From Modicisalibacter coralii (GTDB lineage Bacteria > Pseudomonadota > Gammaproteobacteria > Pseudomonadales > Halomonadaceae): DNA of 64,000 bases. The translations under genes were made by a program, and so were the position numbers. This document shows positions 20,264 to 56,936 of this stretch, in pieces (within the stretch, counting starts at the first letter, position 1; each line of letters opens with the position of its first letter). The notes beneath the pieces were generated by a model. The model saw only the letters and a list, made by a program, of their open reading frames with translations. It was not told the origin of the DNA and ran no database searches. The stretch spans positions 1 to 64,000 of the forward strand of contig NZ_QWBW01000015.1 in NCBI RefSeq assembly GCF_004117855.1, in the 5' to 3' direction.

Positions 20264-21348
20264 CAGGCGTCCTGCAGCGCGGCCAGGCGCTCGGCCTGGT
20301 ATTCGTTGACCAGCGGTCCGACCACCTCGTCGAGCTCGCCGGCCATCACCTCGCCGAGCTTGTAGAGGGTCAGGTTGACGCGATGATCGGTGAGCCGGCC
20401 CTGGGGGAAATTGTAGGTGCGGATACGCTCGCTGCGATCGCCCGAGCCGACCAGTGACTTGCGGGTGTCGGCCTGCTGGCGGCGCTGGCTGTCCACGGCG
20501 CTCTGCTTGAGCCGCGCGGCGAGCAGCGACATCGCCTTGGCACGGTTCTTGTGCTGGCTGCGCTCCTCCTGGCACTCCACCACCACGCCGGAGGGCAGGT
20601 GAGTGATGCGGATCGCCGAGTCGGTGGTGTTGACGTGCTGGCCGCCGGCGCCGCTGGAGCGGAAGGTGTCGACGCGCAGGTCGTTGGGATCGATGTCGAC
20701 GTCGCCGACCTCCTCGGCCTCGGGCATCACCGCCACCGTGCAGGCCGAGGTGTGGATGCGTCCCTGGGACTCGGTGGCCGGCACCCGCTGCACGCGATGC
20801 GCGCCGGACTCGAACTTGAGCCGGGCATAGACGCCCTCGCCGCGCACCCGGGCGATGATCTCCTTGTAGCCGCCCTGCTCGCCATGGCTGGCGCTGACCA
20901 CCTCGACCTTCCAGCCGACCTTCTCGGCGTAGCGCGAATACATGCGAAACAGGTCGCCGGCGAACAGCGCCGCCTCGTCCCCGCCGGTACCGGCACGAAT
21001 CTCCAGGAAGACGTTGCGGTGGTCGTCGGGGTCGCGGGGCACCAGCAGCTGCTTGAGGCGCTCCTCGAGGGCCGCCAGGCGGTCGCGACCCTCGCGCAAC
21101 TCCTCCTCGGCCATCTCGCGCATCTCGGCATCGCTGTCGGCGCAGAGCTGCTCGGCGGCCTCGATGTCGCCCTCGGTGGCCCGGTAGGCCTGCCAGGCCT
21201 CGACCAGCGACTCGAGCTCGGCGTACTCGCGGGAATAGTCGCGAAAGCGCGCCTGGTCGCCGATCACCTCCGGCTCGGCGAGCAGCGCGGCCAGCTCCTC
21301 GAAACGGTCCTGAAGGCTTTCCAGACGTTGGCGCAGTGACGCTTTCAT
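20263..21348 (-). CDS. prfA: Peptide chain release factor 1
   Basis: Terminates translation at UAG and UAA. The 361-residue protein carries the codon-discriminating PAT tripeptide (190-192 in RVPATESQG) and the peptidyl-transferase-centre GGQ (235-237 in GAGGQHVN). It is encoded 8 nt after hemA and overlaps prmC, whose product modifies that GGQ. Family length is normal and nothing is missing. Confidence 0.97.
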
Positions 21349-27505: not shown

Positions 27506-28198
27506 ATGTCCGATTATCAATTGTCCGCCAACGTTCGACACGACCTGGGGAAAGGTGCGAGCCGCCGCCTGCGTCGTAAGAACGAGCAAGTCGCTGCCAT
27601 CATCTACGGCGGCGAGAAGGCCCCGCAGCCGATCACCATCGACAAGCCGGCCTTCTACAAGGCGATCGAAGAAGAAGCCTTCTTCTCCTCGATCATCACC
27701 ATCGACGTCGAGGGCAGCAAGGAACAGGTCGTCATTCGTGACCTGCAGCGCCACCCGTACAAGGCGCTGGTCACCCACGCCGACTTCCTGCGTGTCGATG
27801 CCACTCACGCCATGACCATGCACGTGCCGCTGCACGTGGTCGGCGAAGAGAACTGCAAGGGCATCAAGGAACAGGACGGCGTGCTGCACGTGCTGGCCAC
27901 CGACGTGACCATCAGCTGCCTGCCCAAGGACCTGCCCGAGTACCTCGAGGTCGACATCAGCGACCTGGAACTGGGCGACACCCTGCACCTGTCCGACCTC
28001 AAGCTGCCGGCCGGCGTGACGCTGGTCGAGCTGAGCCATGGTGAAGAGCACGACGCCGGCGTGGTCAGCATCACCCGTCCGACCCGCGGTACCACCGAGG
28101 AAGGCGACGCGGAAGAAACCGAGACGCCGACCGAAGTCGAACAGCGTGCCGAGGAAGAAGCCGGCAACGAGGGCGAGGAAGACGGCAAGGCCGAGTAA
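27506..28198 (+). CDS. rplY: 50S ribosomal protein L25, long Ctc form
   Basis: Binds 5S rRNA in the central protuberance. The 230-residue protein has the N-terminal L25 domain (about 1-95, with [19 protein letters not shown] and AIIYGG), then the C-terminal TL5/Ctc beta domain (about 100-190). An acidic low-complexity tail rich in Glu (190-230) follows, much longer than the 94-residue enterobacterial protein. It is followed by the damaged pth gene with only about 33 nt between the rplY stop and the likely original pth start. Confidence 0.95.
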
Positions 28199-28231
28199 TC
28201 GGCTTCGCCGTACCACCAGCAAGGCACCCGC

Positions 28232-28731
28232 ATGACGCCCTGGCGCGCGACAGCCATACGCCGCTGCGCATGGAGAAGAAGTTTCTCGGCGACTACGCCA
28301 AGATCCACTTCGCCGGTCACGAGCTGCACCTGCTCAACCCGACCACCTTCATGAACCGCAGCGGCGCGGCTGTCGCCGCGCTCTGCCAGTTCTTCAAGAT
28401 CGCCCCCGAGGAACTGCTCGTCGCCCACGACGAACTGGACATCGCCCCCGGCACCGCCCGCTACAAGCGCGACGGCGGCCACGGCGGTCACAACGGCCTG
28501 CGCGACACCATCAGCGCGCTGGGCAATCGCAAGGACTTCCACCGCCTGCGCATCGGCATCGGCCACCCCGGCAGTGCCAAGCAGGTCACCAACTATGTAC
28601 TGGGCCGCCCCGGCAAGGCCGAACGTCAGGCCATCGACGCCGCCATCGACGAGTGCATTGCCACCCTGCCCGACGCCCTCTCCGGCGACTGGGCCAAGGC
28701 CATGAACCGGCTGCACAGCTTTTCCGCCTGA
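28232..28731 (+). pseudogene. pth: Peptidyl-tRNA hydrolase lacking its N terminus (frameshifting 5' deletion)
   Basis: Pth recycles peptidyl-tRNA and is normally about 195 residues. From codon 28234 onward the frame reads like Pth (DALARDSHTPLRMEKKFLGDY), with FMNRSG, VAHDELDI, GGHGGHNGLRD and RLRIGIGHPG all intact. The first about 28 residues are absent, including the GLGNPG Asn and the catalytic His of TRHNAG. ATG 28232 has a well-spaced AAGG (28221-28224) and looks like the original start, but it is offset by two bases from the Pth frame. The deletion therefore also shifts the frame. The only in-frame ATG is 28270, giving 153 residues without the catalytic His and with no ribosome site. 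Either a real lesion or a sequence/assembly error. Confidence 0.85.
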
Positions 28732-28747
28732 GTCGGAAAATCTCGCT

Positions 28748-28832
28748 GTAAGCTTGAAGCTATAAGCCGTAAGCCATCCCAACCGGCCGCGTGAGCTGTC
28801 TTACCGCTTAACGCTTATGGCTTACCGCTCAT
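28748..28832. repeat. Inverted AAGC-type repeat between pth and ychF
   Basis: The left arm is built of short GTAAGC/ATAAGC-like units (28748-28777). It is mirrored by CGCTTAACGCTTATGGCTTACCGC on the right (28805-28828), with a perfect 9-bp core GTAAGCCAT (28769-28777) / ATGGCTTAC (28817-28825). It resembles the dispersed AAGCT-rich intergenic repeats known from halophilic gammaproteobacteria. Confidence 0.6.
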
Positions 28833-28888: not shown

Positions 28889-29980
28889 ATGGGATTCAAC
28901 TGCGGCATCGTCGGCTTGCCCAACGTCGGCAAGTCCACGCTCTTCAATGCACTGACCAAGTCCGGTATCGACGCCGAGAACTTCCCCTTCTGCACCATCG
29001 AGCCCAATACCGGCATCGTGCCGATGCCCGACCCGCGCCTCGACAAGCTCGCCGAGATCGTCAAGCCCGAGAAGGTCGTCCCCACCACCATGGAGTTCGT
29101 CGACATCGCCGGACTGGTGGCGGGCGCTTCCAAGGGCGAAGGCCTGGGCAACCAGTTCCTCGCCAACATCCGCGAGACCGACGCCATCGCCCACGTGGTG
29201 CGTTGCTTCGACAATGACAACGTCATCCACGTCGCCAATCAGGTCGACCCGCGGGCCGACATCGAGACCATCAATCTGGAACTCGCGCTGGCCGACCTGG
29301 ACAGCGTCGAGCGCGCTCTCCAGCGCCTCGCCCGGGTGGTCAAGAGCGGCGACAAGGAGGCCATCGCCACCAAGGCCCTGCTCGATCGCATCCAGCCGCA
29401 CCTCGCCGAGGGCCTGCCGTTGCGCAGTTTCGGGCTCTCCGACGAAGAGAAGCGCCAGGTCAAGAGCTACGGCTTCCTGACACTCAAGCCGACCATGTAC
29501 ATCGCCAACGTCAACGAGGACGGCTTCGACGCCAACCCGCACCTCGACACCGTGCGCGAGATCGCCGCCGAGGAAGGCGCCGTGGTGGTGCCGGTGTGCA
29601 ACCAGCTCGAGGCCGAGATCGCCGAACTGGAGGACGAGGAGCGCGCCATGTTCCTCGACGAGATGGGCATGGAGGAACCGGGCCTCGACCGGGTGATCCG
29701 CGCCGGCTACAACCTGCTCGGCCTGCAGACCTACTTCACCGCCGGGGTCAAGGAAGTGCGCGCCTGGACGGTCAGGGTAGGCGCCACCGCGCCCCAGGCG
29801 GCCGGCGTGATCCACACCGACTTCGAGAAGGGCTTCATTCGCGCCGAAGTGGTGGCCTACGACGATTTCGTCACGCTCGGCGGCGAAGCCGGCGCCAAGG
29901 ACGCCGGCAAGTGGCGCCTGGAGGGCAAGGAGTACATCGTCGCCGATGGCGACGTGATCCACTTCCGCTTCAACGTGTGA
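28889..29980 (+). CDS. ychF: Ribosome-binding GTPase/ATPase YchF (Obg-like)
   Basis: Universally conserved P-loop NTPase that binds ribosomes and in bacteria prefers ATP; linked to stress responses. The 363-residue protein has G1 GLPNVGKST near 8-16, G3 [20 protein letters not shown] and the altered G4-like NVNE, then a C-terminal TGS domain ([22 protein letters not shown]...). ATG 28889 is the family start; the frame is open 24 codons further. Linkage pth-ychF is conserved across gammaproteobacteria. Confidence 0.97.
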
Positions 29981-39634: not shown

Positions 39635-40357
39635 CTAATCGCTAGCAAGATGCCCCCGATCCAGATGCAGCACCCGATCCTGATGCGCGGCCAGGCCCGG
39701 ATCGTGGGTCACCACCACGAAGGCGCAGGCCGTGGTCGCGGCGAGTTCGTCCATCAGCGCGAGGATGCTCGCCGCGGTGGTCTGGTCGAGGTTACCCGTG
39801 GGCTCGTCCATCAGCATCAGGCTGGGATCGGTGATCAGCGCCCTGGCGATCGCCACGCGCTGGCGCTCGCCGCCGGAAAGTTCGCCCGGCTTGTGATCGG
39901 CCCGTGCCGCCATGCCTACCTTGTCGAGGATCTCGCCGGCCCGCTGCTCGGCCTCCCGGCGCTTCTGACCGCGAATGATCAGCGGCAGCGCGGCGTTCTC
40001 GCGCGCCGTGAACTCGGCCAGCAGATGGTGGAACTGATAGACGAAACCGATGTGACGATTGCGGAAGCGGCCGAGCTCGGCGTCGCCGAGATCGGCCAGT
40101 GAGCGATCGGCCACGCGCACCGTGCCGGCGGTGGGCTTGTCGAGCCCGCCGAGCAGGTTGAGCAGGGTGGTCTTGCCGGAGCCGGAACTGCCCACCACGG
40201 CGATCCGCTCGCCGGCGCGCACCGCCAGATCGAGCCCGTCGAGAACGGTGACGTCCTGGGGGCCTTCCCGATAGATCTTGGTCAGCCCCTCGCAGGCCAG
40301 CATGACCGGGCGCGCGGTGGCTTCGTTCGGGGTCGTCGATTGCATGGGCTCATTCAT
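39635..40357 (-). CDS. lolD: Lipoprotein-releasing system ATPase LolD
   Basis: ATPase powering extraction of outer-membrane-destined lipoproteins to LolA. The 240-residue protein has Walker A GSSGSGKTT, the LolD-typical Q-loop FVYQFHHLL, signature LSGGERQRVAIARAL and Walker B LMLMDEPTGNLD. ATG 40357 is chosen because GGAGG lies 9 nt upstream; this gives an 8-nt overlap with the permease gene. It acts together with LolB encoded at 24.8 kb. Confidence 0.94.
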   Translation of the reverse strand: MNEPMQSTTPNEATARPVMLACEGLTKIYREGPQDVTVLDGLDLAVRAGERIAVVGSSGSGKTTLLNLLGGLDKPTAGTVRVADRSLADLGDAELGRFRNRHIGFVYQFHHLLAEFTARENAALPLIIRGQKRREAEQRAGEILDKVGMAARADHKPGELSGGERQRVAIARALITDPSLMLMDEPTGNLDQTTAASILALMDELAATTACAFVVVTHDPGLAAHQDRVLHLDRGHLASD

Positions 40358-41594
40358 AGCGCAGTACCTCCGCAGGCTGGACACGCGCCGCCCGCCAGGC
40401 CGGGTACAGCGTCGACAGGAAACTCAGGCCGAAGGCCGCCAGCACGATGAAGCCCACGTCGCTCCACTGCAGCCGGGAGGGCAGATAGCTGATGAAGTAG
40501 ACGTTGGGATCGAGGAACTGGATACCGGTGACCGCCTCGAACCAGGCGATGATGTCGGAGACCGACAACGCCAGGACGATGCCCAGCACCACGCCGATGA
40601 CGATGCCGATCAGGCCGATCGCCAGCCCCTGGACGATGAAGATGCCCATGATGGTTCGCGGCGTGGCCCCGATGGTGCGCAGGATGGCGATGTCGGCGTG
40701 CTTGTCGGTGACCACCATCACCAGCGTCGAGACGATGTTGAAGGCGGCGACCGCGACGATCACCATCAGCAGCAGCCCGATCATGCGCTTCTCCATCTGG
40801 ATCGCCTGAAACAGGTTGCCATGGGTGTAGGTCCAGTCCATGCCGCGGTAACCGTAACCCAGCTGATTGAGGATCGACTGGGTCACCGAGCCGGCGAGGA
40901 AGAGGTCGTCGAGTTCGAGCCGCAGCCCGCCGACGGCATCGCCCATGCGCGCCAGTTTCTGCATGTCCTGGATGTTGGTATAGGCCAGCCGCGCGTCGAG
41001 GTCGGCCCCGACCTTGAAGATCCCGCTCACCGTGAAACGCTTCATGCGCGGGAAGACCCCGCCCGGGGTGATCGAGGCCTCGGGCACCAGCAGCGTCACC
41101 CGGTCGCCGACCCCGACGCCCAGGTTGCGTGCCAGCAGGTCGCCGAGCACGATGTGCCACTCCCCCGGGGCAAGATCGTCGAGGCTGCCCTGCTGCATGT
41201 GCTGGTCGATGATCGACACGCGCTTCTCGTAGTCCGGCTGGATGCCCCACACCAGCGCGCCCTGGGTATTGCCGCCGGCCGCCAGCATGCCCTGCTGCTC
41301 GACGTAGGGCGCCGCGGCGACGACGTGCTTGCGCTGGGTCAGCCGCTCGGCGAGCGGCTTCCAGTCGGTCATCCCGGCGGGCTTCTCGATTCGCGTATGC
41401 GGAACCATGCCCAGCACCCGGGTGCGCAGCTCGTGATCGAAGCCGTTCATCACCGACAGCACCAGGATGAGTACCGCCACGCCCAGCGTCAGCCCCAGCA
41501 TCGAGGTCAACGAGATGAACGAAATGAAATGGTTGCGTCGTTTGGCCCGCACGTAGCGCAGCCCGATCAGAAAAGGTAGGCGATCCAGCATCAA
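40350..41594 (-). CDS. lolC: Lipoprotein-releasing system permease (LolC/LolE/LolF type)
   Basis: A 414-residue inner-membrane permease with one N-terminal helix (about 22-50, LTSMLGLTLGVAVLILVLSVMNGF), a large periplasmic domain and three C-terminal helices. The family motif is MNGFDHELRTRVLG. Only one permease gene accompanies lolD here, whereas enterobacteria have separate lolC and lolE. A LolF-like homodimer is one explanation; a second permease elsewhere is another. Confidence 0.9.
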   Translation of the reverse strand: MMLDRLPFLIGLRYVRAKRRNHFISFISLTSMLGLTLGVAVLILVLSVMNGFDHELRTRVLGMVPHTRIEKPAGMTDWKPLAERLTQRKHVVAAAPYVEQQGMLAAGGNTQGALVWGIQPDYEKRVSIIDQHMQQGSLDDLAPGEWHIVLGDLLARNLGVGVGDRVTLLVPEASITPGGVFPRMKRFTVSGIFKVGADLDARLAYTNIQDMQKLARMGDAVGGLRLELDDLFLAGSVTQSILNQLGYGYRGMDWTYTHGNLFQAIQMEKRMIGLLLMVIVAVAAFNIVSTLVMVVTDKHADIAILRTIGATPRTIMGIFIVQGLAIGLIGIVIGVVLGIVLALSVSDIIAWFEAVTGIQFLDPNVYFISYLPSRLQWSDVGFIVLAAFGLSFLSTLYPAWRAARVQPAEVLRYE

Positions 41595-55440: not shown

Positions 55441-56895
55441 TCAGTCGCGGGCGCGGGGCAGGTAACGGAAGCGCACGTTGGACATCGACTGCAGGATGCG
55501 CACCACCTGACAGCTGTAGCCGAATTCGTTGTCGTACCAGACGTAGAGCACGGCGTTGGTGTCGTCGGCGATGGTCGCCTTGGCGTCGACGATGCCGGCA
55601 TGGCGGTTGCCGACGAAGTCCGACGACACCACCTCGGGCGAGTCGACATAGTCGATCTGCTTCTGCAGCGGCGAATCCAGCGACACCTCGCGCAGGTAGT
55701 CGTTGAGACGCCCGGCGTCGGCCTCGCGCTCCAGGTTCAGGTTGAGGATCGCCATCGAGACGTTGGGCGTGGGCACGCGGATCGCGTTGCCGGTGAGCTT
55801 GCCCGAGAGTTCCGGCAGCGCCTTGGCCACGGCCTTGGCCGCCCCGGTCTCGGTGAGCACCATGTTCAGCGGCGCACTGCGCCCGCGACGATCGCCCTTG
55901 TGGTAGTTGTCGATCAGGTTCTGGTCGTTGGTGTAGGAGTGCACCGTCTCGACGTGGCCGTGGCGGATGCCGAATTCGTCGTTGACCGCCTTGAGCACCG
56001 GCACGATGGCGTTGGTGGTGCACGATGCCGCCGAGATGATGCGATCCGCGTCGCCGATGTCGTCGTGATTGATGCCGTAGACGATGTTCTTGACGCTGCC
56101 CTTGCCCGGCGCGGTGAGCAGGACCTTGGCCACGCCCTTGCTCGACAGGTGCTGCGACAGCCCTTCGTCGTCGCGCCACTTGCCGGTGTTGTCGACGACG
56201 ATGGCATTGTCGATGCCATAGGCGGTGTAATCGATCTCGCTGGGCGAGTCGGCGTGAATCACCTTGATGTAGTGGCCGTTGGCGATCAGCGCGCTGTTGT
56301 CGTGGTCGACGCTGATCGAGCCGGCGAAGGGCCCGTGTACCGAGTCGCGACGCAGCAGGCTGGCCCGCTTCTCGAGGTCGTCACCGCCGCCGCGCACCAC
56401 GATCGCGCGCAGACGCAGCAGGTTGCCGCCGCCGGCCTTCTCGATCAGGATGCGCGCCAGGATACGCCCGATGCGCCCGAAGCCGTAGAGCACCACGTCC
56501 TTGGGTTCGCCGCCCATGCCGTTGGTCTCGTGGCCCCCCACGATCTCGGCGAGCTCCTCGCGCAGGAACGCCTCGACATCGCTGCGACCGCTGCGCTTGA
56601 AGGCCACCGCCAGCTTGCCCAGGTCGATGTGCGCCGGGGCCAGCTCCAGATCGAGCATGGCCCGGACCATCGGCAGCGTATCGCGCACGGACAGCTCGGT
56701 ACCCTCGACCTTCTTCACGTAACGGTGGTTCTTGAGAATACGGATCACCGAACGAATGATCAGCGAACGGCCATACAGCGAAGGCACCACGTTGTACTTG
56801 CGATACAGCTGACCGAGCAGCGGGATCATCTCTTCGGCCAGCGCCTCGCTGTCCTGCCATTCCTGAAAACAGGTATCGAGCATGTCTTGACTCAC
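55441..56895 (-). CDS. Glyceraldehyde-3-phosphate dehydrogenase, long form with N-terminal extension
   Basis: Phosphorylating GAPDH of 484 residues. About 130 extra N-terminal residues (helical, SEALAEEMIPLLGQLYRK...) precede the standard enzyme: NAD motif LYGFGRIGR near 136-144, catalytic SCTTNAI (Cys292) and C-terminal WYDNEFGYS. This long form is known next to mfd in Pseudomonas; it may serve gluconeogenesis or regulation. GTG 56895 is preferred because AGAGG lies 7 nt upstream; GTG 56910 and ATG 56883 are alternatives. Divergent from mfd. Confidence 0.88.
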   Translation of the reverse strand: MSQDMLDTCFQEWQDSEALAEEMIPLLGQLYRKYNVVPSLYGRSLIIRSVIRILKNHRYVKKVEGTELSVRDTLPMVRAMLDLELAPAHIDLGKLAVAFKRSGRSDVEAFLREELAEIVGGHETNGMGGEPKDVVLYGFGRIGRILARILIEKAGGGNLLRLRAIVVRGGGDDLEKRASLLRRDSVHGPFAGSISVDHDNSALIANGHYIKVIHADSPSEIDYTAYGIDNAIVVDNTGKWRDDEGLSQHLSSKGVAKVLLTAPGKGSVKNIVYGINHDDIGDADRIISAASCTTNAIVPVLKAVNDEFGIRHGHVETVHSYTNDQNLIDNYHKGDRRGRSAPLNMVLTETGAAKAVAKALPELSGKLTGNAIRVPTPNVSMAILNLNLEREADAGRLNDYLREVSLDSPLQKQIDYVDSPEVVSSDFVGNRHAGIVDAKATIADDTNAVLYVWYDNEFGYSCQVVRILQSMSNVRFRYLPRARD

Positions 56896-56936
56896 GTAGT
56901 CGCCTCTCACGGAATCGCGTTGAAAATGATGCGTTC

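Follow-up and report, generated by a model that had tools for sequence, protein, structure and literature searches.

The assembled sequence of Modicisalibacter coralii carries an 85-bp frameshifting deletion which removes codons 2–30 of the only pth (peptidyl-tRNA hydrolase) gene found in the genome, and the gene as written, judged from its sequence, cannot yield a catalytically competent Pth. It is fairly probable, in our view, that this is a hairpin-linked technical deletion which lies in the library or the assembly, or in a minority of the templates, and that the cells carry an intact pth. The locus was found within the first 64 kb of a 148-kb contig (C74), in a genome of 4.44 Mb and 74 contigs with an estimated completeness of 99.99%. 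These first 64,000 nucleotides were analyzed as one stretch of DNA, which is called the window here, and the features recorded at the locus are the following.

27506..28198, plus strand: rplY (bL25/Ctc), the upstream neighbour, intact (open reading frame; NCBIfam NF004130, 268 bits)
28216..28235, plus strand: retained 5′ arm of an inverted repeat, assigned by homology with relatives (folds of 13 relatives, 9 of them with the bracketing pairs)
28221..28224, plus strand: AAGG, with ATG 7 nt downstream (sequence; the same stretch lies 5′ of pth in relative G009)
28232..28354, plus strand: 40-codon out-of-frame ORF, which now begins at the old pth start, ATG 28232–28234
28235..28237, plus strand: deletion join (net 85 bp absent against each of 13 genus relatives)
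28237..28731, plus strand: residual pth frame, from residue 31 (relatives' numbering) to the stop (PF01195, TIGR00447, 2pth_A from chain residue 31)
28889..29980, plus strand: ychF, the downstream neighbour, intact (TIGR00092, 536 bits, residues 1–363)

The original prediction held that pth had lost its 5′ end through a frameshifting deletion, and this is true against every genus relative tested, the segment being intact in 13/13. The start codon is normal-looking as described (AAGG at 28221–28224, 7 nt, then ATG 28232), and the offset of two bases between this start and the Pth frame was confirmed, with the frame of ATG 28232 ending at 28354 and the Pth frame open from the join to its stop at 28731. 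The first ATG, GTG or TTG of the residual Pth frame is ATG 28270, and no full-length Pth frame from a start codon with a ribosome-binding site is present at the locus. Homology to Pth runs from 28234 and covers positions 25–183 of the 183 of PF01195 with 158 bits against a cut-off of 27; the TIGR00447 score is 147 against a cut-off of 100.

The active-site motifs FMN, HDELD and GGHGGHNG are present in the residual frame. GLGNPG, which holds the peptide-recognising Asn, and TRHNAG, which holds the catalytic His, had been reported as absent, and neither was found at the locus or elsewhere in the assembly. According to PMC11994314, catalysis in the Thermus enzyme centres on His19, and Asn9 tells peptidyl- from aminoacyl-tRNA; a paper whose title names an essential role for histidine 20 is cited there. 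A shortened working Pth, started from CTG 28240 or ATG 28270 or reached via frameshifting from ATG 28232, would suit the open residual frame and the three motifs kept in it, but the residues which correspond to the catalytic His and the peptide-recognising Asn are gone, and substitution of either strongly lowered the activity of E. coli Pth according to the same source (PMC11994314). When the rplY–pth junction was compared in the relatives, the same short N terminus, which the original prediction had named as a refutation, was seen in 0/13. A working enzyme of this kind is very improbable.

Each of the 13 genus relatives gives a net loss of 85 bp. The claim that the lost length is not a multiple of three therefore stands, and the estimate of about 82 nt which came with it does not. 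Similarly, the start does run directly into later Pth codons, and these resume at residue 30/31 of the relatives' Pth and not at about residue 29. The join is clean and without Ns. The best splits keep 2–5 bases of ATGAC against 8/13 relatives, 2–7 against G004, 3–5 against G011 and 2–3 against G006, G012 and G013. A GACGCC run had been proposed as a short-homology breakpoint; this is not supported, as GACGCC was not seen as a direct repeat in the flanks of the relatives, which share GA only (2 nt) in the closest matches G007 and G009.

The absence of the segment is, by the sequence comparisons made, not due to chance, because the N terminus of pth is complete in 13/13 relatives of the same genus, both motifs are in frame in 79/80 named loci (the best 80 of 366), and a clearly weakened match among the 254 good-quality family genomes is found only in this genome and in G161. 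A match to PF01195 was obtained in 57/58 genomes of the first sample of relatives (this genome included), in 273/275 genomes of the family and in 254/254 of its good-quality ones (this genome counted in both), and in 369/377 genomes of a class-wide sample of Gammaproteobacteria, limited to completeness of at least 95%, or 360/367 of the good ones. A hairpin-linked technical deletion seems likelier to us than the tolerated loss of an enzyme matched in this last proportion of genomes.

Some other genomes also have an irregular pth. In G161 the gene has a frameshift and two overlapping pieces, both of which are kept. Four family genomes of low completeness have a partial or split pth: overlapping pieces in G146 and G245, two partial matches on two contigs in G184 and a C-terminal piece in G286. 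The exception among the best 80 of the 366 named loci is L092 (Halomonas olivaria AP019416), which by its coordinates is the same as G245; this genome is rated 86% complete, and the apparent frameshift which breaks its pth in two is likely a sequence error. As an observation of its own, no PF01195 match was found in G480, G308, G485, G600 and G629, which are Gammaproteobacteria genomes rated 97–100% complete. The most striking of these is G480, with about 40 contigs and a rating of 100%. G429, a 0.3-Mb single-contig genome rated 95%, is also without a match.

The locus had been taken as the main copy of the gene, and this was supported by the kept gene order rplY-pth-ychF and by a profile search of the whole assembly (4.44 Mb, 74 contigs), in which PF01195 gave a single match. 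The search for another Pth which had been suggested was also performed. With the full Pth protein of a relative, and E values up to 10, neither a second Pth nor a detached N terminus was detected, and the only hit was the pth locus itself, from residue 30 of the relative. A 131-base segment of relative DNA spanning the pth start matched the locus only from the join onward; its 40 further matches were all short (14–41 bases) with E of 0.02 or more. Pth2 (PF01981) gave 0 matches in the genome. Added to the matches in every good family genome, the lack of Pth2 and of a second Pth or N terminus in these searches further supports a technical deletion. Viral contigs were searched as well and no relative was found there.

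A real deletion may also be present in some chromosomes only, if the culture or clone was a mixed population or had the region in duplicate and the assembler collapsed or discarded the intact copy. A real join would then agree with the essentiality of the gene, and a collapsed repeat could leave just one PF01195 match, as seen. No intact fragment was found on any of the 74 contigs, which speaks against it, and we give this explanation only a small chance.

Three matches to the RF-1 domain were found in the genome, at 20380–20703 of the window, on contig C13 and in an ArfB-like protein. The first two are taken as putative release factors. The ArfB-like protein has 137 aa with GAGGQ and is encoded at C6:290823-291233; tmRNA is also present in the genome. 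ArfB was detected in 9/14 genomes of the genus including this one and is thus common to 8/13 relatives, all of which keep pth. ArfB/YaeJ was hence rejected as a specific replacement for Pth.

The quality of the assembly was checked along the contig with the ORFs of G003 or G009 which are conserved in two other relatives. Among those with a hit, 41/43 (G003) and 45/47 (G009) are intact on C74; 13 and 14 ORFs without a hit, respectively, were set aside, and by extrapolation these lie at or beyond the contig end. Taken as targets in turn, G009 had 40/40 intact and G007 38/43 of those with a hit (10 without a hit). The gene pth is the one clear break among the conserved ORFs of the contig, for the second flagged ORF of G003 has an over-extended start in the query and the second one of G009 has 97 aa and lies opposite a window ORF. 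A generally poor assembly was rejected on this basis.

A separate screen against the window flagged 27 ORFs with G009 as query and 26 with G003, and 19 and 18 of these had no match in the window. The flagged ORFs with a window match are pth; ORFs in other strands or frames over pth, rplY, prs and 40350–41594; genes truncated by the contig start; and low-identity matches to other genes. The frames of three flagged ORFs were checked and the others were judged from coordinates. The clean join, the completeness of 99.99% and the lack of any sign of generally poor assembly argue against a technical deletion, and the clean join in a contig whose conserved genes are otherwise intact counts in favour of a genuine loss.

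The surroundings of the start were analyzed by minimum-energy DNA folds of a 106-nt stretch, which starts 16 nt upstream of the ATG and ends with codon 30, in 13 relatives. In 9/13 of them codons ~22–29 pair with the ATG and the bases upstream of it, so that the pairing brackets the lost segment. The four relatives without the bracketing pairing, G004, G006, G008 and G012, group together as a clade in the tree. Judged by homology, the window would have kept the 5′ arm (28216–28235) and lost the loop and the 3′ arm. Tested on 131-nt stretches, none of 200 shuffles folds as strongly as G007 (z −3.96) and 3 of 200 as strongly as G009 (z −2.34); in G013 (z −1.96), G001 (z −1.39) and G011 (z −0.39) the fold exceeds the shuffles barely or not at all. 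Ranked among 300 windows slid along the locus, the fold takes places 3–23 in seven of the nine relatives. It comes at 137 and 164 of 300 in G002 and G003, which are the two closest relatives and sister to the window genome in the tree, and is there not unusually stable for the locus.

The pairing of the start region showed no excess of covariation beyond the shuffle controls. It is for this reason treated as a DNA inverted repeat and not as a proven RNA element, and the idea of an RNA hairpin kept by selection at the pth start was rejected. As a side observation, the pairing seen at L118:1191-1296 and at the equivalents in L112, L113, L114, L116, L120, L121, L122 and L124 could sequester the pth start in the mRNA and may be a possible translational control, which the covariation does not support. 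A REP-like element is further found between pth and ychF (28745–28828), with two adjoining 42-nt arms which are 71% complementary and 9 more partial matches elsewhere in the genome.

Deletions at inverted repeats can arise via slipped mispairing or via polymerase jumping at hairpins. The location of the inverted repeat points to a skip by a polymerase, which could have taken place in the cell or in the tube. In the mechanism proposed here, the inverted repeat over the pth start would form a hairpin, with one arm before and over the ATG and the other over codons ~22–29, and a DNA polymerase or an assembly step may skip it and leave the 85-bp deletion. This skip would occur in the sequencing library or the assembly, or in a minority of the template molecules. 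This account supposes that the ancestor of the window shared the hairpin of the relatives, that this hairpin was the cause of the skip and that the skip took place outside the living cell. We favour a technical or minority event because the gene is essential, the remnant is free of stops and the hairpin brackets the loss; Pth is called essential in most bacteria in PMC9973355. The unremarkable fold in G002 and G003, the weak folds against shuffles in G013, G011 and G001 and the lack of covariation argue against this explanation.

Selection on the remnant was analyzed by a branch model (own implementation) over 161 residual codons and 14 taxa. The dN/dS of the residual pth is 0.34 on the window branch against 0.09 elsewhere (LR 6.4, p=0.011), and against a ratio of 1 the window branch gives p=0.08. 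No comparable shift was seen in ychF (196 codons) or rplY (10 taxa), and none of the 13 other genomes reaches LR 2.5 when it is used as foreground for pth. In a scan of 49 window ORFs, which were picked by rule and some of which are maybe not genes, with five taxa (four for some), upward shifts above 3.84 were found only in pth (LR 5.5) and in 55441–56910 (LR 5.9). The latter is a conserved ORF on the minus strand, open throughout, with a window-branch dN/dS of 0.146 against 0.039.

The changes which are found only in the window number 10 nonsynonymous and 5 synonymous in pth, against 722 and 1099 across the remaining 48 ORFs (Fisher p=0.06). About 6.7 nonsynonymous and 10.2 synonymous changes are expected for 153 codons from the 16,508 codons of the other ORFs. 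As 5 synonymous changes were observed against 10.2, part of the raised ratio in pth reflects a shortage of synonymous changes, and the counts are small. The window departs from its four nearest relatives at 11 positions, and at 7 of these its residue is found in another member of the genus, which gives further support to a technical deletion. A window-only Asp lies in the GGGHGGHNG segment, where 13/13 genus relatives have Gly and 1/80 named loci (the best 80 of 366) has Asp.

The raised dN/dS of the remnant is what is expected under already relaxed selection and argues against a technical deletion, though weakly, few synonymous changes contributing to it. The corresponding explanation is a genuine loss with bypass, in which the deletion is fixed in the strain or lineage, little peptidyl-tRNA drops off or some other enzyme cleaves it, and the residual pth would be a pseudogene or an inactive C-terminal fragment from ATG 28270. 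Besides the clean join, it draws on the likelihood ratios with 14 and with five taxa, on the rarity of such upward shifts (2/49 window ORFs), on the Gly-to-Asp change and on the presence of the ArfB-like protein and tmRNA. Against it, Pth is essential elsewhere (PMC9973355), the raised ratio reflects a low count of synonymous changes in addition to a high count of nonsynonymous ones, the residual frame is still open, without a stop over the 161 codons compared, ArfB is not specific to this genome and no Pth2 was found. We consider a genuine loss unlikely. In its boldest form, a free-living halophile lineage would have lost catalytic Pth by a hairpin-driven deletion and would live without a recognised peptidyl-tRNA hydrolase, owing to very low drop-off or to an unrecognised enzyme, with the remnant under relaxed constraint; this is unlikely. 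Among the literature matches listed, none reports a free-living bacterium without pth in its title or the start of its abstract.

If the loss is real, it would be very surprising, for it would mean that a free-living gammaproteobacterium can do without Pth, which paper titles present as a studied antibiotic target, and it would open the search for a replacement. If the deletion is an artefact, a single hairpin-linked event makes an essential gene seem absent from a genome rated almost fully complete, and this matters for surveys of gene loss.

The technical deletion which we prefer resembles known hairpin-deletion systems in that the lost segment, by homology, is the loop and one arm of the inverted repeat of the relatives; it is unlike them in that the flanks of the lost segment share 2 nt only, and an origin in the cell is not distinguishable here from one in the tube. 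With the split pth genes of G161, G245 and G146 the locus has in common that a single pth is not readable in one frame, whereas the N- and C-terminal pieces overlap in those genomes and the window is without 85 bp and without an N-terminal piece. In comparison with bacterial Pth (Pth1; PF01195, TIGR00447), the window gene is without residues 2–30, which hold GLGNPG and TRHNAG, and its start codon is out of frame, but it shares with this family the rplY-pth-ychF locus, residues ~31 to the C terminus and scores above the cut-off.
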